Positions 1,048 to 13,660 of a DNA stretch of 64,000 bases are shown in pieces (the stretch's first letter is position 1; each line of letters begins with the position of its first letter). The position numbers and the translations under genes are program-made. The notes beneath the pieces were generated by a model. That model was not told the DNA's origin. It did not search any database and saw only the letters and a program-made list of their open reading frames with translations. Location of the stretch: NCBI GenBank assembly GCA_016840405.1, contig JAEOSK010000010.1, forward strand, positions 1 to 64,000, given 5' to 3'. The stretch is from Candidatus Hermodarchaeum yapensis. Lineage in GTDB: Archaea > Asgardarchaeota > Hermodarchaeia > Hermodarchaeales > Hermodarchaeaceae.

Positions 1048-1213
1048 GTTTTTTTACCCCGGGGTGGTCAGCGGGGCATTGGAGCGTTGTTGCGTGATTC
1101 CAGGTCGCAATGCAGTGTGAGGGTCAGATGACGCGTTCATCGGTGACCCTTTAGTGTTACCGCTCCAATTACCGCCAAACCGTTACTTTACGACCGGTGA
1201 GGCGCTTTAAAAA
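1048..1213 (-). promoter_or_regulatory. Promoter and structured 5' leader of the partial giant gene
   Basis: On the minus strand a TATA-like box (TTTTTAAAG, 1205-1213) lies about 27 bp before GGTTTGG (1175-1181), the predicted transcript start. The leader of about 134 nt holds a 9-bp perfect inverted repeat (1078-1086 with 1161-1169) that encloses two hairpins. One is 1121-1149, with stems of 6 and 5 bp and a 5-nt loop; the other is 1090-1110, with a 5-bp stem. Between this element and the ATG is a 10-nt palindrome, ACCCCGGGGT (1056-1065), whose GGGGT half could serve as a ribosome-binding site. The same plan recurs before the neighbouring giant gene. The pairing is seen; a regulatory role is inferred. 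Confidence 0.55.
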
Positions 1214-1294
1214 CATTTACCTGCATCGTTGTCTAAACAAAAAAGAAAAGATTGAGTGCTCAAGAGCATCCTGTGCGTCGAGCACTCAGGAAAT

Positions 1295-4200
1295 CTACTC
1301 ATCCATGTTTGCGTTTTGTCGCAACGAATTATACGTAGCTTGGCGCTCTTCCTTACTCAGATACTTCAGGTGATCGACTAAGGCTTCCTTCTCTACATCG
1401 CTAAGATCCGGAATCTTCGCAAGCTCCCGGCGAATCTCAGCAATCACCGCAACGGGGGCGGCAGGGGCCTCTTGGAGTTCGGGAGGTAACACAGTAGGCG
1501 CGGTTCGGTCTTCCCTTTTTACCTTGGGTTCCGGTGGTTCTTCAGGCGGTACTTCTTCCAGTGGGGGCTTTTCAGGCTTAATAGAAGGTGTTTCAGGTGG
1601 AGTGGGTTTTGGTGGTGCTTTTACAGGCGCTACTTCTGGAGGTGGTGTTATCGGTTCTTCACGTTGGGTGAGGAAGTCCATCCGACGTTGACCCATCTGG
1701 CGCTTCAAGTCGTCGAGGAACCAGATCCGGTCTTTGCGAGGAATCTTTCGCATCTCGTTCGCAAGGACGGTTTTCTCTTCCGGACCTAATCCTGGAATCT
1801 TGTCCAATTCAGTCATGATGTCTTCTTCAGTGGCCGTGATTTCTTCCACTTCTTCTGTTTTTGGAATCATAGCTGATGTTGCAGCCACGCCAATCGTACC
1901 CATCGCTGTGTCTACTTTGGACTGCATGGTAACTGCACGGGCTTGGAAGCGTTTCAAGTCCTTCCGACCAAGTTTATAGCCTTCATCCTTTTCAACCGTC
2001 TTTGCGAGTTTCCGCAAACGACGTACTTCCCACGGAATTGAGTAAACACGGGCCCAGAGAATCCAGCCAATCAGCGCAATGACCACTATTACGGCACTGA
2101 TAGATCCATAGAAAATTAAGTAATTCGTGAGTTCTGTGAATTCGATATTGACAAAACTTTCAATTTGGTTGACAGGATTATAATTGAATTTCTCAGCAAT
2201 GAGAGTCAATGTAGTTGAACTGACAAAGGATGTACTAATTGTTATGTTATAAAAACCAGGATGGATTGGATCAGGATTTACCGAGATTGTTCCTCCTATA
2301 GGACCTTCATGTTCATAATTAACTTCAGCCCCAGACACTGGTGCATTGTGATATGTGTCATTTAGATAGAGTCCAAAGGAGTAGGTTGTTCCGATATAAA
2401 GTGTATTAGGAATAGGCTGGGTTAAACTGAGTTCCATTGGAATAGGACCGACTTCAAGGCTCTTGCTAGTCATTTGGTTTTCATAAAAATCTGAACGAAA
2501 TTCAATTATGAGTTCGCGGGTGGCTGATGTATTAAATTGGAAATACACAGTCCAATAGCCGAAGTCGGAATCAAAGGTGAAATCTACAGCAGTAATAAAG
2601 CTGATGGTTCTTGCTAACACCTCTTCTTCAAGGAGACTGCTATTACTCATATCCTTATAATCAAAGGTTAGGATAAGTGTATCTCCAATGGGAATGAACC
2701 AACTGGGGTTCGAATAGGGAACGGAGACATTATAGTCAATCCCATCAATTGTGACGATTGTATATGCACTTATGAGTTCTAATGTTGTTTTTGCCTTGCT
2801 GATTGTTAGAGGAACTGAAGTTGACGAGTCACTGTATTTTGAAAATATTGGATGATAGATACTAATTATCCGGGCTTGACTACTTGGAGTTTCATTGGCA
2901 GGGAACGAGCAATTATACCATCCGTCAGTACCATTTTCGATGAAATTGTATGGGATCCCTTGCCAAAGGAGATACAGCGTGTGGCCATTGATTGGATTCC
3001 ACAGACCAAAACCTCGTGTGTCATTAAGAAAGACGTTAATTATGACATTCTGCTTGTAATCCGCTGAATAAGCCGTTTCTTCGACGATAATCTCACAAGG
3101 CTTATACCTCACAGTGATTGTGAAAGTGATTTGCTGAGGGATTGTATTTGCAGCGCCAGCTGTAACGGTGATGGTTTGAGGTTGAATCCGCCAGTCAGAT
3201 GTATCGAATTCACAATAGTAGGTTCCGTCTGCTATGAAGGTGAAATTCTTCAGCACTAAGGAGGTTGAAGCATTTAGTGCGCGAATTGCGGCATTATTCA
3301 AAAAGTTCCAGAAGGTCTCATTTTCATGAACTGACCAAAAAGTCACAAAAAGAGTGATTTTGTCATCTATGTAGACTTGTATTGCAGTACTATTTCCTGT
3401 TGGAATATCGAGTCTTGTGTTTACTGCTTGAATGCTTACTGTAAAGATGAAAAATTCAGTTTCGTAGTCGGTCATGTTCGTTTGGATGATGAGTTGGGTT
3501 CCTGTTGCTTCTGCTAATCCTGTATCGAGTGTTGGAATAATAGTATAGAAGCCAGGAGTTCCCGTGTATGTCATTAATTCCCAGTCTGAAGTATACCATT
3601 TGTAGATGATTTCGGTGCCGTTGGCTGAGGTCATTGGAGTTCCGGTTAAAACATCTTCAAGGTAAACTGTGACAGGAATGAGTTCTCCCCAGTAAACAAT
3701 TATATTCTCGCCAATTGGGTCGATTTTTACCAGTGAAAGAGGTGCTTTATGGATTGTAATGTCAACATCTCTGATTTGTTCTTCATAATTTGATTTAGAA
3801 GCGGTGAGGTAGAAGGAGAACGCTCCTGCAGCGAGACCTGTTGTGTCAATCATAATTACCCAGGTTCCATCCATTCTCTGAGTATAATTGAATGTCAATC
3901 CAATATCAATAAACCAAATTACATCGGTGATATTTTCGAATCCGTGGTCTCGATCTTGGTATAACGCCTCAATAACCAGCCATTGAGAGTAGTATAGTGT
4001 AGAGGGTTGCGACCAATCGAGCGTTGTGCGAATTTCACGGACACGTGCTGAAACGAAGGTTTCTGCAGATGCATAGTATGGGAAATATTGTGGGTCAAAT
4101 CCTGTGGGCCACGTTAGTGTGATGCGGAATGAATAAGTTCCTATATCAAGATTCATACTTCCGCGAATAATTAGTGTGTAGTTACCGTCAGTTCCTGGCC

Positions 4201-7200
4201 AGGAGGAGGCGGGAACGTACCAGTATGAATCATTCCATCCTGTTATATCGTCACATTCAACAAGAATGCCAACATATTCACTGCCATTAGTGATTAATCC
4301 TCCACCAGTCGTCTCGTAATGCAAATTGATGATGATATCATCACCAGTTGGCTCGGTTTGGATGGTTTCGGAGTAAAGAATGGTTTCAGTTCCTACTGTG
4401 CGGACTGAAAATGCTTTTGTTGCTATAGTATAGAAAGGCGCATTTCCACCAATCCAACTAGCCTCTATTTTCAGGTTGAAGATTATGTTAACCGCTCCTA
4501 GTTCACTAGCATTGATTAAAACGCGATAGTAAAGGGTTGGTTCGCTCCAACCTGCACCAAATGTTATGTCTTCAATATAATAGGTAGCAGAGATTTCACT
4601 ATCGTTTGCAGCATGTAGGATACGGATTCGTACATAAGTACCAGTTGTTAAATTATCGATACCCCAGTCATCAAGGACGTCAGTATAATTTAGGTAGACG
4701 ATAACATTATCCGCATAGTTGGTGTCGGGTGGATTCGTATTGATAATGCGGGTTTCTCGGGTTTCGGATGTTAACCAAACGCCCACCCACTGTTCTTCGT
4801 AGTCTGATGGATCTGCTATCCACCCAAGGGTGATGTTAATCCAGTAACTTCCTGGTGATGGAGTTTGATTAGAGTTGATAGTGATAAGGTATTGGCCATT
4901 TCCTAAGTCTGACAATGAAAAGCTTGGATTACTCCAACTACCATTAGTGAAGATGGTATTTTGATCAGAACCAGTAATGCCGTCTCCATCTTGGGAGCTT
5001 GCATCATCGCGAACGCGATAGATTATTGTGATGTAGAAATCTTCACCATAGGGCGCGGCGTCAACTGGCTCTTTTTCAATCTCAGTGTATACGGTACGGA
5101 TGTTAAATGACATTGGGGGATTGGCGATTCGGGCAGATCGATATGGATCCGTTGGGTGATATGCATCAACTTCGATTTCATAACTCTCAATACCAAGTGC
5201 CTTTGTAATGGTGATGCGGTAGTATCCGGGGTATGGTGTGACGGAATAGTCACTTGGAAGAAGGACTAAACCCCCGATGCCCGTGACGGTAATAGTGGCT
5301 CCGGAAATAAATGCCCCGTTGTTGGAGCTTTGTCCATCCAGGATGAAGTATTGCACATCGACAGTAACATTATCGCCATAAGGTGTTGTTGGGACTCGTG
5401 AGTAAGCAAGTGTTGTGAAGAGAGCACGCACGGTAATTGGGACATTGCTGAGTTCTCTATTAGTAAATTGGGCTGGGCTAGATATTAAAATGTCAAAGAA
5501 ATAGGTCTGATTAGTCGGGAGTTCTGTAGCAAAGATGGTGATGGTATAGGTGCCATCTGCATTGTCCAGGAAGGTAAAGTTCACACCCAGAGTTAAAGTC
5601 GCTATGCTTATTGTAGCTCCTGTGATTGGATCTCCATTTTGGAATGCAATCGTGTCAGAAACGGTGTAGTTCACTTCAAGAATCCCATCTTCTCCCCAAG
5701 CGACGACCGGTGGGCTTTGATAAGTAAAGCTAGTGGCAAGCGCACGAATAGTGGCTGCTGTGTACACCGTGTCATTCTCATAGCTTGCTGAAGTGTACAC
5801 GTATATATCTAGTGCATGAGTTCCTAACGCCCAACCTGTCGTATCTATGGTAACCGTGAAGATACCATCGTCAGGTAAGCCATTTTCTACCCATTGTGTC
5901 CAGTTTCCACTATCAATAAAGAGGGTTGTTGGACCTAGAATCCGTATGGCGATAAGGTCTGCATCAGGAAATGATGTACCTGGCTCATCATCATCGTCAA
6001 CGCGTAAAACCATGGATCCATTATTTTGCCAGGGTATAGTGGTTATGGGATCGATATCACTAGCAATGTAGTGGTTGCGAATCCGAAAACCGATGGTTTG
6101 GTCGGCATTTTGATGGTATGCATCGGGGGCGATAACATGCAAGGCAAGGGAATAGATTTTCACTATGGAGATTTTTCCACTTGAATAAAGGATGGTTAAT
6201 GTGTACTGACCGCCACCGTTATCAACGAGAGTATAATCACCTGGATCGAGTACACTGCCATCGAGCAAAGTTCCTGCGATACTTGTTACTCCGGTAATCC
6301 CATTACCGTCTTCACCACTTGCTGAATCATCCACAATATAATTGAAAACGATAATGACATCTAAACCCCAGGCTGTGCTACCTACTGGATCGTATATGAT
6401 TGCGGTACGAATTGTTCGAATTTCAAACCCAATATTGATGCTTGCATCATCATGTTGGGTATCCGGTGAGTTCACATAGAGATCCAATGAATAGGTCTGA
6501 ATGCTACTAATTCTACCACTTGAGAAGAGAATTGTAAGAGTATATTGTCCCCCGCCATTATCGACTAGTGTATAATCACCGGGATTCAAAGCACCACCCT
6601 CAAGCAAGGATCCCGCAAGTGAGGTGATACCCGTGATTCCTATGCCATGCTGAGAACTGGCAGGATCATTCACTTGATAATTGAAGATAATGACCACATT
6701 TGTACCTCGGGGAACAGGAGGCGTGGGAGTATAATTTATGAGGGTGACAATAGACCGTACGTCGAATTGCACGGATCGGTCTGCGTCGTCATAATTTGCA
6801 GCTGGTTTATTCACATAGAGGTAGAGGGTATATGATTGAATGTTGTTGATTCTAGCGCTGGAATTAAGAATTGTAAGAGTATATTGACCAGCTCCTTCAT
6901 CAACTAATGTGTAATCGGTACCAACTAATCCAACGGCATTTAGTGTTGACCCTGAAATGTCTGTTAAACCAGTAATACCATTACCGTGTTGGATACTCGC
7001 TAAATCACTTACCCGATAATAGAATGTAATAACAACATCATCACCCCAAGGTGTTGGTGAGGGTGGGTCAATCGTCACATGAGTTGTTAAGGCACGAATA
7101 TCGAAGGTAATGGTTTGGTCAGCGTCATCATATTGAGCGGCAGGGGCATCAAAATGTAATTCCAATGTATAGGTCCTAATACTGGACAATTTCCCACTGG

Positions 7201-10200
7201 AATAAAGAAGAGTGAGGGTGTACTGACCGCCACCGTTATCGACCAGACTGTAGTCACCTGATACTAGGGCTATAGCATCTAAGGTAGATCCACTAATGCT
7301 CGTTACTCCGATAATCCCATTCCCGTGCTGGGCGCTGGATGTATCTTCAACCAAATAGAATACAGTGATAACCACATCCTGACCCCAAGGCGTCGGAAGG
7401 GGCGGCGTATAGGTAATCTTTGTACCCAACAAGCGAACAGTAAATGATGTTGTTCGGTCTGCAGTATCGTACTCAGCGCTGGGCGCAACAACATGCAGAG
7501 CCATTGAATAGGACTTGATACTCGAAATAACTCCACTGCTAAATAGGATAGTAAGAGTGTACTGGCCCCCACCATCATCAACCAGAGTATATTCACCGGG
7601 GTTCAGAGCTACTGCGTCAAGAGTGGAGCCGGTAATTGAAGTGACCGCGATTATGCCTGTTCCGTCATTAGAACTGTCTAAGTCGTTGATGATGTAATAG
7701 AAAGTGATGACGACGTCTTCACCCCACGGGGTCTGGGGAATCGGATCAAAGGAAATCGAAGTCCGCAACGTCCGGACACTGAAACTAATTGTTTGTGATG
7801 CATTCTCATGTTGAGCATCAGGAGAAACGACAAAGACAATCAGAGAATACAACTTGACGCTAGATAGTTTCCCACTACTAAATAGAATAGTTAGAGTATA
7901 TTGACCTCCACCATTATCAACGAGTGTATAGTCGCCGGGGTCGAGTGCGACAGCATCAAGGGTTGATCCTGTGATACTAGTAACGCTTGTAATGCCTGAG
8001 CCATCTTGGGAGCTGGTGGGGTCATTTACAGTATAGTAGAAGATGATTTCGACATCTTCACCATACGGTGTGGGACTGACTGCATCATACGTGATGAAGG
8101 TTCGAATGGTCCGAATTTCGAATGTGATGGTTTGGTCAGCATCATCATGTTGGCTATCAGGAGCGACGACATGCAGGTCAAGAGTATATGTTTTGATGTT
8201 GTTGATGATTCCACTGGTAAAAAGTAGTGTTAGGGTGTATTGACCACCGCCATTATCTTCAAATGTATAATCTGTGACGAGGAGTGGTGCTCCATCCAAT
8301 TGGGACCCAGCAATTGACGTTACACCAGAAATCCCGTTTCCATGGTGACTACTGGACGGGTCATTGACCTTATAGTAGAAAATGATGACGACATCCTCAC
8401 TCCAAGGTACTGGAATGACAGGGTCATACGTAATTTCAGTTGCGAGAGTTCTCACATCAAAAGTGATTATTTGATTCGCATCATCATGTTGAGCATCTGG
8501 GGAGTTCACATAAAGGTACAAGCTGTAAGATTGGACGGTATTGATCTTTCCACTCGAGTAGAGGATGGTGAGTGTATATTGACCTCCGCCATTATCTACG
8601 AAGGTAAAGTCGCCAGGATCAAGAAGAACCGCGTCAAGGGTGGATCCTGCTATATTGGTGACGCCAGTGATGCCGTTGCCGTGTTGGGTGCTAGCGAGGT
8701 CACTAACCCGATAATAAAAGGTGATTATAACATCGTCACTCCACGGAGTTTGTGTCGGTGGATCAATCGTTACTTGGGTTGTCAGGGTGCGAATATCGAA
8801 GGTAATGGTTTGATCAGCAGCATCATATTGGACAGCTGGAGCATCAAAATGCAACTCTAGCGTATAGGTCTTAATGCTGGACAGTCTCCCACTGGAATAA
8901 AGGATTGTGAGGGTGTATTGTCCAACCCCATTATCAACTAACGTGAAATCACCTGCAATAAGAGGTGCGCCATCAAGTGTTGAACCCGTGATGCTGGTGA
9001 CGCCAGTGATGCCGTTGCCATGTTGTGCACTGGACGTGTCTTCGACCAAATAGAACACAATGATAACCACATCCTGCCCCCACGGTGTAGGAAGAGGTGG
9101 CGTATACGAAATTTTCGTTCCAAGTACTCGGACTGTGAAAGTGGTGGTTCGATCTGCGGAATCATATTCAGTGCTTGGGGAATCGACGTGCAAGGCTAGC
9201 GAGTAGGATTGGATGTTCGAAATTACTCCACTACTGTACAGAATAGTGAGGGTGTATTGGCCCCCACCATTATCAACGAGGGTATATTCTCCAGGGTTCA
9301 AGGCGACGGCTTCGAGTGTGGAGCCGGTAATGGAAGTGACCCCAGTGATGCCGGTGCCGTCATTGGAGCTGTCTAGGTCGTTGATGACATAGTAGAAAGT
9401 GATGATGACATCTTCGCCCCAGGGGGTCTGGGGAATCGGGTCAAAGGAAATTGAGGTTCGTAGTGAACGAATTGTGAATGAGAGCGTTTGTGTCGCATCT
9501 TCGTGTTGAGCATCGGGTGAGTTCACATAAATGTACAGGGAGTAAGTTTTGATACTGTTTACCAGCCCACTTGAATAGAGAATAGTTAGAGTATATTGAC
9601 CTCCACCATTATCAACGAGTGTATAATCACCGGGGTCGAGAGCGATAGCATCGAGGGTCGATCCTGTGATATCGGTGACGCCAGGGATACCAGTCCCATC
9701 TTGGGAGCTGGTGGGGTCATTTACAGTATAGTAGAAGATGATTTCGCCATCTTCACCATACGGTGTAGGGCTAACCGCATCATAGGTAACAAAGGTTTGG
9801 ATTGCTCGTATAGAAAATCCAATTGTTTGGTTAGCGTCGTCATGTTGGCTATCAGGCGAGTTCACATAAATGTACAGGGAGTAGGTTTTGATGCTGGTTA
9901 TTAGACCACTTGAGTAGAGTATGGTGAGGGTGTATTGGCCGCCCCCATTATCTACAAGTGTGTAATCTCCTCCTGTGAGTGGTGTTCCATCTAGTGTGGA
10001 GCCAGAAATATCGGTTACGCCTGTGATACCATTACCATGTTGACTGCTTGCAGGATCATTGACACTATAGTAAAAGGTGATTATCACGTTCTCGCTCCAG
10101 GGCACAGGAATCACTGGATTGTAAGTAATCTGTGTAGCCAATGTTCGAACGGTAAAGCTCGTGGTTTGAGCAGCGTTTTCATGTTGGGTATCTGGTGTGT

Positions 10201-13200
10201 TTACAAAAACGTAGAGTGAATATGTTGTAATACTATTGATCATTCCGCTGGAGTACAGGATGGTGAGGGTGTATTGGCCCCCACCATTATCGATTAGTGT
10301 ATAATCGCCACCGAGTAGGGGGGCACCATCGAGAGTGGAACCAGTGATGTTGGTGACACCAGGAATTCCTGTACCATGTTGACTACTAGCTGTATCACTG
10401 ACACGATAATAGAACGTGATAACAATATCTTCACTCCAAGGTGTTGAAGCAATGGGTTCGAAGGTAACTTGGGTGATTAATGCCCGAATCACGAAGGTAA
10501 TTTGCCTGTTATTGCCGATGTATTCAGATGAAGGCGAGATAACATACAATTGCAATGTGTAGGATTTGACGGTATTTATTCTCCCACTGGAGTACAGGAT
10601 GGTGAGGGTGTACTGACCGCCACCATTATCCACAAGGGTATATTCGCCGCCAAGGAGGGCACTTCCATCAAGCGTCGTTCCAGTCAGGCTTGTGACACCG
10701 GTGATTCCTTCTCCATCATGTGAACTATCGGGATCATCAACAGTATAATAAAACGTGATTACCTGGTCTTCACCTCGCGGTGTTGGTTGTGGTGGATCAT
10801 AGGTGATAGATGTTTCCAAAGCTCTTACATTAAAGTTGATGGATCTGGTGGCATCACTATACTTCGAATCTGCTGGTGTTACTTGAAGAAGGAGGGAGTA
10901 GGATTTTACAGAATCAATTACTCCACTTGAAGAAAGGATTGTTAGGGTATATTGACCACCTCCAAGATCTGAGAGGGAGTAATTAGTCCCTTCAGTAAGT
11001 GGAGTTCCATCAAGTTGAACAATAATCGATGCTCCGCTCAACCCAGTTCCATCATGTTGGCTGTCTGGATCATTAACGGTGTAATTAAAGGAAATCACTA
11101 CGTCTTCGTCCCAAGATACGGATCCAGGCGGTGTGTAAGTGATGGTCGTTGAGATTTCACGAATTACAATTGTAAGAACTAAAGTCTGGTTTTGATAATA
11201 ATTGAGGTCTGCTTGGATTGCAAGGGAATAGGTACCGGGTGTAGGTTTATCTGTGGTGTCTACGGTTATATTATACCATCCTGCAGTTCCGGTGGGTGTA
11301 ACAACAGTACTTGGCCATCCGGTAGTGGTAATTGTGGCTCCAGTGACCCCGGTATTGTTGTAGACATCCCAGTATTTGACTTGAACAGTGAAAACTTCAT
11401 CATAAGGGACCGTTAATCCAGGTGACTCAGGAGATGTAAGAGAGGTTCCACCTCTGATAAAGAGGTTAATTGATGTGCTCTTTGAATCGAAGTCCGTTTT
11501 ATTAGCATCAATGCTAAGTACATAATCCCCTGGCCCTAGTATATTCTTGGCAATTTGTGCCTCATAATATCCACCAGAAGCATAGAAACTGATAGGATTA
11601 CCAGAAACATTTCCGTTTACAGTTGCTCCTGTAATGGGTAGATTAGTGTCAGTATCTAAGAATTGGACACGTGGATAGAAGTAACCGGTATCTGCATAGG
11701 TGACCCACATATCTGATTCATCGGGAGTTAATGTGGTGGCATGTTCTATACTGATAATTTTTGATTGAAAGCCTGCGGAGGTGATGGAATAAGTGTCACC
11801 GTTGTCATAGCTGATGCAGAGTGTGTAATCTCCGGCTGGGTATATGGTTCCATCAGTGAATTGGATGTTCGGAAACGTGACAGTGGTACTCGTGACGGTT
11901 TGGGATGATTCATTGATAGGATATCCTGTTGGGTCGTAGAGCGTTAAGTTGGCCTGTCCAGAAGAAACCGAGATCGTAGCCTCTACTGTCAATGTTGAGG
12001 GGCTGCCTGGACTAATCCGAAAAGTGTCAAAATTCGTTGTTATAGATGATACACGGTTTGTGGAAGCAAGAGTGAAGTTCCACCAACCATATACATCATT
12101 CACAGCCGCGGTAGAAAGTTCAAAATGCGTGGCTGTAGTCGTGACTACGCTTGTGCGGTCATTGAAGAGCGCGTCTGTCACTTCATACAGAGTCCAAGTT
12201 TCCGTGGTTGGACGAATGATTGAAAGATTGTAATTTTCAAAGAAATATGGTTGATACGAATACACCCAAGTAGTCAAATAAACGGGTGTATTATTTCTTG
12301 CAACAAACTGCGTTCCATCTGGACCCACCTGTTGTTCTGTGGTTGCTTCTTTTGTTATGTATAATGTTAGATCATAATCAAAGCTTACTAATCGTGCATC
12401 ATTATCGGTTGCTTCCCAATGAGCAAGAACCTCTTCATGGACTGTAGTAGGATTCGCCCAAGTTCCAGGTACAGAATAGGTTCCAACACCATAATCTGCG
12501 GTTTGAGCAATTGTGGTGTTCATCATCAAGTCAAGCCAGATATGGTTTGGATTGACTTTTCCTCGGACTTCTAAGGTCACATCATCAAAATCGAGTGCCC
12601 AGTATTCATAATCCCATGCGGCTTGTGCACCAGTCCAAGAGAGACCTAGTCGGACATTAATGTTTCCAGGAACTGACCATGTGAGTAAATCATCATAAGG
12701 AATAGAGATATTCAAATTATACCATTGTCCGTTATTTGGACAGCGTTCATCAAGGAGCTGTCGATAGACAATTCCAGCAACTTCTGCAAAAATTACCATT
12801 CGACCGCGACCTCCACTAGAACCTGCTAAGAGGTTAACCCGTACCCTAAAGGTTAATTTTGCATATTCAGGATCATCTCGTTGAATGTTAATGGCATTTC
12901 GCCAGACAATATATTGTGTGGCATCCCAATTGAATCCGCTCCACCATTCTATCCATGTTCTTACTCCGTTTCCTGAATAACCGTACCCTGATCCCCATAG
13001 GGTTCCGTAGAATGGGTTCGTGGTATTATCTGGTGGTATGATATTGTATTGACTACTCCATGCAGTACCAATATTTTCGAAATTCCCGTTTTCTCGGCTC
13101 CCTTGCATGAAATAGGGTTGATCATAAAGGTTGTAGACGTTCGCATCAAGCTGATAACCCGTCCAGCCAGCAGGTAAGCGAATTTCACCATATTCGTCTT

Positions 13201-13495
13201 CACCATAATAAAAATCGGAAACTTGTAGCGAAAGATTGGAACCTTGGGCGTATTCGGTGGTTGATAGTGTTGTTCCCATACCTTCATACTGATATTGTCC
13301 ATCTGAATAGACGGGACCTTCAGGGAGTGGGATTGGTGAACTTTGTACTCTTGTTGCAGAGTTGGAATCAATAGGTAATGGAGGGGTTTCTTTCGCTTCA
13401 CTCAAATTAGATGAAGGAGTGATCCCTTGTGGGAAGGCGATGGAGAAAAGAAAGAGGGCTAGTAAGAAGCCTAATATGATGGGTTTTCGGTTCAT
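1295..13495 (-). CDS. Giant Ig-like-repeat surface protein with C-terminal membrane anchor and cytoplasmic tail
   Basis: This frame encodes 4066 residues from an ATG at 13495. A TTG nine bases upstream is also open, but the ATG position matches that of the paralogous gene. Residues 1-25 are a signal peptide. About 30-320 is a beta-rich region shared with the gene at 1-1047, with WTGYQL and a concanavalin-like look. Diverged Ig-like domains follow, then 15 copies of a 113-residue repeat with a GGGQYTLTILYSSG core, then more diverged Ig-like domains. One transmembrane helix lies near 3790-3815 (DNA about 2050-2130). The tail of about 250 residues is basic, then proline-rich, with two similar helical modules (KIPGLGPEEK and KIPDLSDVEK). 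An extracellular stalk or adhesin anchored in the membrane is the best reading. No enzymatic motif is seen. Confidence 0.9.
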   Translation of the reverse strand: MNRKPIILGFLLALFLFSIAFPQGITPSSNLSEAKETPPLPIDSNSATRVQSSPIPLPEGPVYSDGQYQYEGMGTTLSTTEYAQGSNLSLQVSDFYYGEDEYGEIRLPAGWTGYQLDANVYNLYDQPYFMQGSRENGNFENIGTAWSSQYNIIPPDNTTNPFYGTLWGSGYGYSGNGVRTWIEWWSGFNWDATQYIVWRNAINIQRDDPEYAKLTFRVRVNLLAGSSGGRGRMVIFAEVAGIVYRQLLDERCPNNGQWYNLNISIPYDDLLTWSVPGNINVRLGLSWTGAQAAWDYEYWALDFDDVTLEVRGKVNPNHIWLDLMMNTTIAQTADYGVGTYSVPGTWANPTTVHEEVLAHWEATDNDARLVSFDYDLTLYITKEATTEQQVGPDGTQFVARNNTPVYLTTWVYSYQPYFFENYNLSIIRPTTETWTLYEVTDALFNDRTSVVTTTATHFELSTAAVNDVYGWWNFTLASTNRVSSITTNFDTFRISPGSPSTLTVEATISVSSGQANLTLYDPTGYPINESSQTVTSTTVTFPNIQFTDGTIYPAGDYTLCISYDNGDTYSITSAGFQSKIISIEHATTLTPDESDMWVTYADTGYFYPRVQFLDTDTNLPITGATVNGNVSGNPISFYASGGYYEAQIAKNILGPGDYVLSIDANKTDFDSKSTSINLFIRGGTSLTSPESPGLTVPYDEVFTVQVKYWDVYNNTGVTGATITTTGWPSTVVTPTGTAGWYNITVDTTDKPTPGTYSLAIQADLNYYQNQTLVLTIVIREISTTITYTPPGSVSWDEDVVISFNYTVNDPDSQHDGTGLSGASIIVQLDGTPLTEGTNYSLSDLGGGQYTLTILSSSGVIDSVKSYSLLLQVTPADSKYSDATRSINFNVRALETSITYDPPQPTPRGEDQVITFYYTVDDPDSSHDGEGITGVTSLTGTTLDGSALLGGEYTLVDNGGGQYTLTILYSSGRINTVKSYTLQLYVISPSSEYIGNNRQITFVIRALITQVTFEPIASTPWSEDIVITFYYRVSDTASSQHGTGIPGVTNITGSTLDGAPLLGGDYTLIDNGGGQYTLTILYSSGMINSITTYSLYVFVNTPDTQHENAAQTTSFTVRTLATQITYNPVIPVPWSENVIITFYYSVNDPASSQHGNGITGVTDISGSTLDGTPLTGGDYTLVDNGGGQYTLTILYSSGLITSIKTYSLYIYVNSPDSQHDDANQTIGFSIRAIQTFVTYDAVSPTPYGEDGEIIFYYTVNDPTSSQDGTGIPGVTDITGSTLDAIALDPGDYTLVDNGGGQYTLTILYSSGLVNSIKTYSLYIYVNSPDAQHEDATQTLSFTIRSLRTSISFDPIPQTPWGEDVIITFYYVINDLDSSNDGTGITGVTSITGSTLEAVALNPGEYTLVDNGGGQYTLTILYSSGVISNIQSYSLALHVDSPSTEYDSADRTTTFTVRVLGTKISYTPPLPTPWGQDVVIIVFYLVEDTSSAQHGNGITGVTSITGSTLDGAPLIAGDFTLVDNGVGQYTLTILYSSGRLSSIKTYTLELHFDAPAVQYDAADQTITFDIRTLTTQVTIDPPTQTPWSDDVIITFYYRVSDLASTQHGNGITGVTNIAGSTLDAVLLDPGDFTFVDNGGGQYTLTILYSSGKINTVQSYSLYLYVNSPDAQHDDANQIITFDVRTLATEITYDPVIPVPWSEDVVIIFYYKVNDPSSSHHGNGISGVTSIAGSQLDGAPLLVTDYTFEDNGGGQYTLTLLFTSGIINNIKTYTLDLHVVAPDSQHDDADQTITFEIRTIRTFITYDAVSPTPYGEDVEIIFYYTVNDPTSSQDGSGITSVTSITGSTLDAVALDPGDYTLVDNGGGQYTLTILFSSGKLSSVKLYSLIVFVVSPDAQHENASQTISFSVRTLRTSISFDPIPQTPWGEDVVITFYYIINDLDSSNDGTGIIAVTSITGSTLDAVALNPGEYTLVDDGGGQYTLTILFSSGVISSIKSYSMALHVVAPSAEYDTADRTTSFTVRLLGTKITYTPPLPTPWGQDVVITVFYLVEDTSSAQHGNGIIGVTSISGSTLDAIALVSGDYSLVDNGGGQYTLTLLYSSGKLSSIRTYTLELHFDAPAAQYDDADQTITFDIRALTTHVTIDPPSPTPWGDDVVITFYYRVSDLASIQHGNGITGLTDISGSTLNAVGLVGTDYTLVDEGAGQYTLTILNSSARINNIQSYTLYLYVNKPAANYDDADRSVQFDVRSIVTLINYTPTPPVPRGTNVVIIFNYQVNDPASSQHGIGITGITSLAGSLLEGGALNPGDYTLVDNGGGQYTLTILFSSGRISSIQTYSLDLYVNSPDTQHDDASINIGFEIRTIRTAIIYDPVGSTAWGLDVIIVFNYIVDDSASGEDGNGITGVTSIAGTLLDGSVLDPGDYTLVDNGGGQYTLTILYSSGKISIVKIYSLALHVIAPDAYHQNADQTIGFRIRNHYIASDIDPITTIPWQNNGSMVLRVDDDDEPGTSFPDADLIAIRILGPTTLFIDSGNWTQWVENGLPDDGIFTVTIDTTGWALGTHALDIYVYTSASYENDTVYTAATIRALATSFTYQSPPVVAWGEDGILEVNYTVSDTIAFQNGDPITGATISIATLTLGVNFTFLDNADGTYTITIFATELPTNQTYFFDILISSPAQFTNRELSNVPITVRALFTTLAYSRVPTTPYGDNVTVDVQYFILDGQSSNNGAFISGATITVTGIGGLVLLPSDYSVTPYPGYYRITITKALGIESYEIEVDAYHPTDPYRSARIANPPMSFNIRTVYTEIEKEPVDAAPYGEDFYITIIYRVRDDASSQDGDGITGSDQNTIFTNGSWSNPSFSLSDLGNGQYLITINSNQTPSPGSYWINITLGWIADPSDYEEQWVGVWLTSETRETRIINTNPPDTNYADNVIVYLNYTDVLDDWGIDNLTTGTYVRIRILHAANDSEISATYYIEDITFGAGWSEPTLYYRVLINASELGAVNIIFNLKIEASWIGGNAPFYTIATKAFSVRTVGTETILYSETIQTEPTGDDIIINLHYETTGGGLITNGSEYVGILVECDDITGWNDSYWYVPASSWPGTDGNYTLIIRGSMNLDIGTYSFRITLTWPTGFDPQYFPYYASAETFVSARVREIRTTLDWSQPSTLYYSQWLVIEALYQDRDHGFENITDVIWFIDIGLTFNYTQRMDGTWVIMIDTTGLAAGAFSFYLTASKSNYEEQIRDVDITIHKAPLSLVKIDPIGENIIVYWGELIPVTVYLEDVLTGTPMTSANGTEIIYKWYTSDWELMTYTGTPGFYTIIPTLDTGLAEATGTQLIIQTNMTDYETEFFIFTVSIQAVNTRLDIPTGNSTAIQVYIDDKITLFVTFWSVHENETFWNFLNNAAIRALNASTSLVLKNFTFIADGTYYCEFDTSDWRIQPQTITVTAGAANTIPQQITFTITVRYKPCEIIVEETAYSADYKQNVIINVFLNDTRGFGLWNPINGHTLYLLWQGIPYNFIENGTDGWYNCSFPANETPSSQARIISIYHPIFSKYSDSSTSVPLTISKAKTTLELISAYTIVTIDGIDYNVSVPYSNPSWFIPIGDTLILTFDYKDMSNSSLLEEEVLARTISFITAVDFTFDSDFGYWTVYFQFNTSATRELIIEFRSDFYENQMTSKSLEVGPIPMELSLTQPIPNTLYIGTTYSFGLYLNDTYHNAPVSGAEVNYEHEGPIGGTISVNPDPIHPGFYNITISTSFVSSTTLTLIAEKFNYNPVNQIESFVNIEFTELTNYLIFYGSISAVIVVIALIGWILWARVYSIPWEVRRLRKLAKTVEKDEGYKLGRKDLKRFQARAVTMQSKVDTAMGTIGVAATSAMIPKTEEVEEITATEEDIMTELDKIPGLGPEEKTVLANEMRKIPRKDRIWFLDDLKRQMGQRRMDFLTQREEPITPPPEVAPVKAPPKPTPPETPSIKPEKPPLEEVPPEEPPEPKVKREDRTAPTVLPPELQEAPAAPVAVIAEIRRELAKIPDLSDVEKEALVDHLKYLSKEERQATYNSLRQNANMDE
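6078..11160 (-). repeat. Tandem array of 15 x 339-bp Ig-like-domain repeats inside the giant gene
   Basis: Fifteen in-frame units of 113 codons repeat with a 339-bp period; the codons for the GGGQYTLTI core recur near 6210, 6550, 6890, 7225, 7564, 7903, 8242, 8581, 8920, 9259, 9598, 9937, 10276, 10615 and 10954. Each unit carries a T-P-W-G/S-E/D-D start, an F-Y-Y strand, a G-N-G-I-T-G-V turn, an L-V-D-N-GGGQYTLT core and an ending of F-x-I/V-R. The unit reads as a two-sheet Ig-like sandwich. Several copies are close at the DNA level, which suggests recent expansion or gene conversion and makes the region prone to assembly collapse. Confidence 0.95.
6756..10145 (-). repeat. Higher-order duplication: a five-unit block repeated twice in tandem
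   Basis: Units 4-8 (8451-10145) and units 9-13 (6756-8450) carry the same series of unit-specific signatures in the same order: PVIPVPWSE, DAVSPTPYGED, DPIPQTPWGED, TPPLPTPWGQD, then an IDPP..TPW.DD unit. Corresponding units five apart resemble each other more than their neighbours do. For example, both copies of the third type carry NDLDSSNDGTGI. A block of about 1695 bp was therefore duplicated as a whole, after the single-unit expansion. Confidence 0.9.
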
Positions 13496-13660
13496 GTTTG
13501 TCAATCCCGGGGGTGCACGGTATCATGTTAAAGCGGAACCTTCGAAGCTCAACCGGTTGATGTGAGTCTGTTGTGAACTCTGCTCCCTGTTTTGGATTAT
13601 GAAGTTGTCCGCTTTCTGTAACCAAACCACAAAGAACCGAATATGTGACGTTTTAAATAC
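13496..13660 (-). promoter_or_regulatory. Promoter and structured 5' leader of the giant gene
   Basis: A minus-strand TATA box (GTATTTAAAAC, 13650-13660) sits about 27 bp before GGTTTGG (13622-13628), the predicted start of a leader of about 133 nt. The leader holds an 8-bp perfect inverted repeat (13530-13537 with 13608-13615). With one bulge and one mismatch this extends into 13538-13543 paired with 13601-13606. Inside are a 12-nt palindrome (13549-13560) and a hairpin (13564-13580). CCCGGG and flanking G residues (13506-13514) precede the ATG. Spacing and order match the leader of the paralogue at 1048-1213 although the paired sequences differ. Confidence 0.55.

Follow-up and report, generated by a model that had tools for sequence, protein, structure and literature searches.

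Genes A and B, two neighbouring genes for giant surface proteins in an Asgard archaeon, are best explained, in our judgement, as sharing a family-specific promoter and start-site element ahead of a long 5′ UTR of freely drifting sequence, although we hold this only somewhat above even. Conservation of their shared layout from promoter to start codon is supported by sequence comparison with related genomes. A structured leader RNA is not recognisably conserved in these relatives, so that a new class of RNA element is suggested at best.

Genes A and B and their homologues

The window, i.e. the whole stretch of DNA analysed, comprises bases 1–64,000 of the 71,389-bp contig 28 in a 2.7-Mb Hermodarchaeota (Asgard archaeon) genome bin (G000). 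The bin was assigned to this group because a neighbouring gene has its nearest relatives there; Hermodarchaeota have been described previously (PMC8163825). The comparison set consisted of eight Hermodarchaeia genomes belonging to two genera, g1 and g2; four other Hermodarchaeota records matched G001–G004 in the places, sizes and scores obtained and yielded no additional leaders.

Both genes lie on the minus strand, as do all features of the window given below, in head-to-tail arrangement, and their proteins are 37–38% identical over the N-terminal 340 residues. Gene A (1–1047) is represented by the first 349 codons of a giant secreted surface protein with a signal-peptide-like start, MKRRNFIPLTILTLFLLSSFIL, and is open at the contig end. 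Since this part covers B residues 25–342, and a 2452-codon open frame at the end of another contig (G000:C12) can be aligned with B starting at residue 360, the alignments indicate that gene A very probably continues at G000:C12:30850, with a whole protein of about 2,820 aa. Gene B (1295–13495) codes for a 4066-aa surface protein that has a signal peptide, 15 or more repeats (each of about 113 aa), one transmembrane segment near residues 3791–3820 and a charged cytoplasmic tail; its sole Pfam match is a weak one, to a surface repeat. At the C terminus, the membrane and cytoplasmic region of B (1295–2146) is 71% identical to G000:C12:23493–24347, against 37% for the N-terminal parts of B and the probable A, and this likeness of the tails would reflect either strong constraint or gene conversion. 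This C-terminal tail is found again in each of the eight genomes, on giant genes that often stand in tandem.

Homologues of B with a readable leader are present in G003 (B′, 68% protein identity), G004 (33%), G005 (49%) and G007 (48%). The G003 orthologue of the A leader, A′, was found by its promoter pattern directly behind B′, at the end of contig G003:C35; its leader ends with the contig after 83 nt, which leaves its 3′ strand outside the comparison, and its 5′ helix strand has 3 of 9 bases in common with that of A. Six complete leaders were therefore compared: A, B, B′ and those of G004, G005 and G007.

A conserved promoter and predicted start-site element

The elements listed for the two leaders in the preliminary description were all found where it had placed them, and the resemblance between A and B exceeds that expected by chance. 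The TATA boxes, TTTTTAAA in gene A (1206–1213) and TATTTAAA in gene B (13652–13659), lie within a conserved BRE/TATA block and are followed by GGTTTGG, the predicted transcript start, at 1175–1181 and 13622–13628, respectively. The order is as described; the spacing between the two reads as 24 bp in A and 23 bp in B, and the predicted leaders are 134 nt and 133 nt long, respectively.

The same offset (24 or 23 bp) is seen in A, A′, B and B′, and G004 carries GGTTCGG in the corresponding place. In the promoter alignment, a near-invariant BRE/TATA block, TAAAnGTATTTAAA, is followed by a variable spacer and by GGTT(T/C)GG, located 23–24 bp past the end of TTTAAA. Nucleotide identity over −60 to −21 is 82% between A and A′, 79% between B and B′, and 90% between B′ and G004 (background about 44%); it is near background over −21 to −1 in the same three pairs, and reaches 100%, 80% and 80%, respectively, over +1 to +10 (GGTTTGGC). 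The genus g2 pair G005/G007 has kept GCGGTGGATTC near the same place; no clear TATA box was seen before A2_G005, the downstream neighbour in G005. Overall, a conserved BRE/TATA block stands at a fixed distance from a conserved motif before orthologous genes, as in an archaeal BRE/TATA promoter with a start-site element.

When the eight genomes were searched with a sequence model covering promoter and start, precisely the five g1 copies (A, B, A′, B′ and that of G004) were recovered, with E values of 1e-16 to 1e-17; the next best match had an E value of 0.04. The pattern TTTAAA-N20-32-GGTTTGG is rare, with 11 matches in the eight genomes and a similar number in a reversed control; those resembling the conserved promoter are the four at A, B, A′ and B′. 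As a genome-wide start motif, GGTTTGG was rejected: it occurs in 537 copies in the genome, and copies spaced from a TATA box are no commoner than in the reversed control.

The BRE/TATA block would set the polymerase so that the predicted transcript begins at or beside GGTTTGG, and the first ten or so bases may have been kept for a role in initiation, as an initiator or an early-transcribed element; alternatively, they may form part of a regulator site common to these giant-protein genes. GGTTTGG is also predicted to pair in closing stems (see below), and its conservation could therefore reflect the RNA instead. To our knowledge, hardly any promoter or leader signals have been mapped in Asgard archaea, and a start motif that is 80–100% kept beside a leader at background identity offers a concrete and testable case for a site of selection.

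Conserved motifs were also seen before other giant-protein genes. Start-site motifs specific to one family may be the rule for these surface genes, because AGTGGCTAC(T/G)CCAGC has been retained where transcription is predicted to begin in another orthologous pair, L096 (G004:C58) and L099 (G001:C14). Three orthologous giant MRK(N/R) genes, L107 (G000:C59), L105 (G002:C75) and L099 (G001:C14), share AAGGAG(C/T)GATTTGGG directly before the ATG. In yet another family, the loci L094 (G000:C54, about 1610–1697) and L097 (G001:C46), upstream of orthologous giant-protein genes, contain a short leader with conserved ACAGCGGGGAGTGAAA..CG..ACTCC directly after the predicted start, in which the GGAGT and ACTCC arms can form a hairpin; as a candidate RNA element, this segment may surpass the A and B leaders.

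The leader sequence and the putative ribosome-binding site

The predicted 5′ UTR occupies positions 1048–1181 in gene A (ATG at 1047) and 13496–13628 in gene B (ATG at 13495). Leader lengths are 134, 133, 128 and 119 nt in g1, and 185 and 172 nt in g2, so that a long 5′ UTR (119–185 nt) is supported as a kept feature in six genes of the family; in two more distant paralogues the leader is about 52 nt. From +11 to the ATG, the g1 orthologue pairs are at background identity (21–42%), and the g2 pair G005/G007 is 53% identical over +11 to +83, with a background of 33%. The leaders could not be assigned to any known Rfam family (riboswitch, thermometer, leader, k-turn or C/D RNA): there was no match at gathering score in the window or in eight homologous loci, and relaxed searches of both leaders yielded only SNORD10 at chance level, scoring 17 bits where the cut-off is 37. 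Leader A also contains an upstream open frame of 28 codons (1054–1140), the stop of which lies 6 nt before the gene A ATG and in the same frame; it was rejected as a conserved feature, being found in leader A alone when the leaders were compared by eye, with B′ having an in-frame upstream ATG instead.

The CCCGGG palindrome is represented by CCCCGGGG in leader A (1057–1064) and by CCCCCGGG in leader B (13506–13513). The GGGGT half of CCCCGGGG, located 8 nt before the gene A ATG, is a plausible weak ribosome-binding site. From its geometry, a loop-less palindrome could not make a strong hairpin; in the predicted fold of leader A it forms a hairpin of at most 3 bp, and it is therefore a poor candidate for the proposed hiding of this site. 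It is absent from the homologous leaders of G003, G004, G005 and G007, and its 7 copies in the window compare with 8.2 expected. As a conserved operator or mask it was likewise rejected, since it accompanies only A, B and one other paralogue (G000:C29), the orthologues being without it. Between the binding site and the ATG, the six leaders show about the accessibility of shuffled sequences, and extra pairing of the start region by a conserved complement, as in leaders that mask the ribosome-binding site, was not found among them.

Folding of leaders A and B

The claim of one architecture for both leaders fared differently in each of them. Leader A is strongly structured, with an MFE z of −2.8 to −2.9, and none of 600 random window segments folded as well, whereas leader B, with two weak inner hairpins, is no stabler than its shuffles (z of −0.44 to 0.09). 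Folding energy is also unremarkable in the two g2 leaders. The outer helices were confirmed by reading the sequence, and are perfect in both cases: in A, ATTGGAGCG (1161–1169) pairs with CGCTCCAAT (1078–1086) over 9 bp, with a predicted outward extension through GGTTTGGCGG, and in B, AAAGCGGA (13608–13615) pairs with TCCGCTTT (13530–13537) over 8 bp.

Compared with dinucleotide shuffles (Watson–Crick pairs, loop of at least 40 nt), helices of this length have p = 0.010 in A and p = 0.041 in B. In 4000 random 137-nt segments of the window, a helix of at least 9 bp occurs in 1.1% and one of at least 8 bp in 5.4%. A single helix is thus unremarkable; its matching placement in A and B is beyond chance, because the share of random segments with 8 bp or more paired at the A/B position is 0.15%, a rate which ignores the choice of features made in the preliminary description. 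RNAalifold on A and B finds 15 closing pairs formed by both leaders, 5 of them changed on both sides; the column-shuffle p is 0.037 for these two leaders and 0.003 when B′ is added. A common closing helix with both-sided changes, as compensatory change would produce, is supported for the paralogue pair, but conservation of the pairing in relatives is not.

A covariance model built from A and B, the check suggested in the preliminary description, was run against the eight Hermodarchaeia genomes and returned A and B alone; at the loci of the direct orthologue B′ and the three further homologues it gave nothing up to E = 10. Once the G004 leader joins the alignment, RNAalifold retains no common pair, in the four-way and the six-way alignments alike. 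Conserved compensatory pairing before homologues in other genomes, which would mark a new covarying class of leader RNA, was therefore not found, and what had been named as evidence against the element is largely what we observe, apart from a weak residue in favour of a closing helix that is re-made in each lineage. Of the idea of a cis-acting RNA, perhaps of a new class, there remain the conserved layout, the long 5′ UTR and the A/B helix, but not the pairing in relatives. It should be kept in mind that matching folds in two paralogous leaders are too little to claim an RNA element.

Possible fold-back of the 5′ end in six leaders

We sought partners of the leader 5′ end between nt 40 and 12 nt before the ATG. 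In 6 of 6 leaders, the first 20 nt pair best with the stretch before the ribosome-binding site, with the same best energies in wide and narrow searches. Permutation of cognate against swapped strands in the six leaders gave p values of 0.003–0.094, with 0.008 at 25 nt and 0.004 at 20 nt. When the first 20 nt were paired with −70 to −12, the shuffle p was 0.001 for A, 0.084 for B, 0.044 for B′, 0.034 for G004, 0.024 for G005 and 0.304 for G007; combined by Fisher's method over all six leaders, the first 20 nt yield 4e-5 in the narrow and 3e-4 in the wide search, and for the four leaders other than the discovery leaders A and B the combined value is 0.011–0.126, depending on the length used, and 0.033 in a separate test.

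With 57 nt of coding sequence added, 13–17 closing pairs are predicted in A, G005 and G007 (about 13 in the latter two), about 3.5 in B, 0.2 in B′ and 0.0 in G004, i.e. two of the four test leaders lose the helix, and a strong closing stem is predicted in A, G005 and G007 only. The weak statistics, with p of about 0.003–0.13 in the non-discovery leaders, leave room for a closing helix that joins the 5′ end to the stretch preceding the binding site, re-made with new sequence each time. This evidence is partly post hoc, as the pairing window was partly chosen after the folds had been seen, and comes from few sequences; we regard it as suggestive.

Weighing the explanations

The main rival to a start element followed by a drifting leader is a cis-acting leader RNA kept by architecture only, in which the 5′ end pairs about 16–37 nt before the ATG and closes a leader with several branches, which would stabilise the mRNA or set the timing of its translation, the stem sequence being repeatedly replaced and the pairing kept. 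The better pairing of cognate than of swapped strands, the Fisher value for six leaders, the column-shuffle results and the survival of about 13 closing pairs in G005 and G007 next to coding sequence all point in this direction; nevertheless, without A and B the combined p hangs on settings, B′ and G004 lose the helix, no pair is common to the four- or six-way alignments, the covariance model finds nothing before homologues, and the choice of pairing window was not wholly independent of the folds. We therefore consider it a possible but distinctly less probable account. A wider proposition, doubtful in our opinion, is that giant-surface-protein genes in Hermodarchaeia carry a class of leader RNA in which a conserved 5′ end invariably pairs with a stretch directly preceding the ribosome-binding site, with stem sequence turning over completely between species, and which ordinary covariance models would therefore miss. 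If true, the closing stem would provide a rare case of a leader conserved in structure only, on transcripts of roughly 8–12 kb.

At the other extreme, the promoter alone might be conserved, with the leader being neutral filler and the likeness of the A and B helices resulting from chance and reader selection. Background identity of the leaders, the ordinary folding energies of B and the two g2 leaders, and the presence of one 8-bp helix in 5% of random segments agree with this, but pure spacer is insufficient because the A/B helix placement is beyond chance, changes occur on both sides of the pairs and leader A is stabler than its shuffles (z −2.9); the leader length is, moreover, kept at 119–134 nt in g1, and such an explanation appears unlikely. 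Less likely still is a translational switch, riboswitch- or thermometer-like, in which CCCGGG or the leader fold hides the ribosome-binding site until a signal opens it. The GGGGT just before the ATG in A, similar GGGG motifs before the G005 and G007 starts, the stable fold of leader A and the masking of ribosome-binding sites predicted for long 5′ UTRs in Methanolobus (PMC5378194) would fit a switch; the palindrome, however, has no loop, pairs over at most 3 bp and is missing in homologues outside this genome, pairing between binding site and start does not exceed that of shuffles across the six leaders, and no Rfam family is matched at gathering score.

Under the preferred explanation, a start element followed by a drifting leader, the 119–185 nt leader would bear a weak GGGGT-type ribosome-binding site just before the ATG, and its 5′ end would tend to fold back on itself, strongly so in A. 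Such folding may shield a very long transcript (roughly 8–12 kb) at its 5′ end while the start codon stays unhidden, the predicted accessibility of the binding site remaining about the same as in shuffled leaders.

Comparison with known promoters and leaders

Structured long leaders precede the S-layer genes of certain bacteria, such as slpA of Lactobacillus and of Thermus, in which a 5′ stem has been proposed to stabilise the mRNA. With the leaders described here they share their length and their position ahead of a surface protein that is abundant or large, while the domain of life differs; a literature search for bacterial S-layer mRNA leaders returned none.

Among archaea, Methanolobus psychrophilus has 5′ UTRs of >100 nt, with 24% above 150 nt and with structure thought to affect mRNA stability or translation, and the long 5′ UTRs of mtaA and mtaC in a cold-adaptive methanogen have been proposed to act in stability or translation (PMC5378194). 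The leaders described here likewise exceed 100 nt but are predicted from sequence, whereas the function of the methanogen leaders is tied to measured transcripts and to temperature. Beside many archaea our leaders are unusually long, the median 5′ UTR of T. onnurineus being 12 nt (PMC5316973). In Thermococcus, the TATA box is located at −30 to −20, and 5′ UTRs are less conserved than promoters (PMC5316973). The promoters of A and B resemble this archaeal BRE/TATA core promoter of Thermococcus and Sulfolobus, with TATA about 24 bp before a predicted purine start and a 5′ UTR less conserved than the promoter. However, while the start bases are weakly conserved in Thermococcus and Sulfolobus, GGTTTGGC is almost invariant here, and is limited to the giant-protein family.
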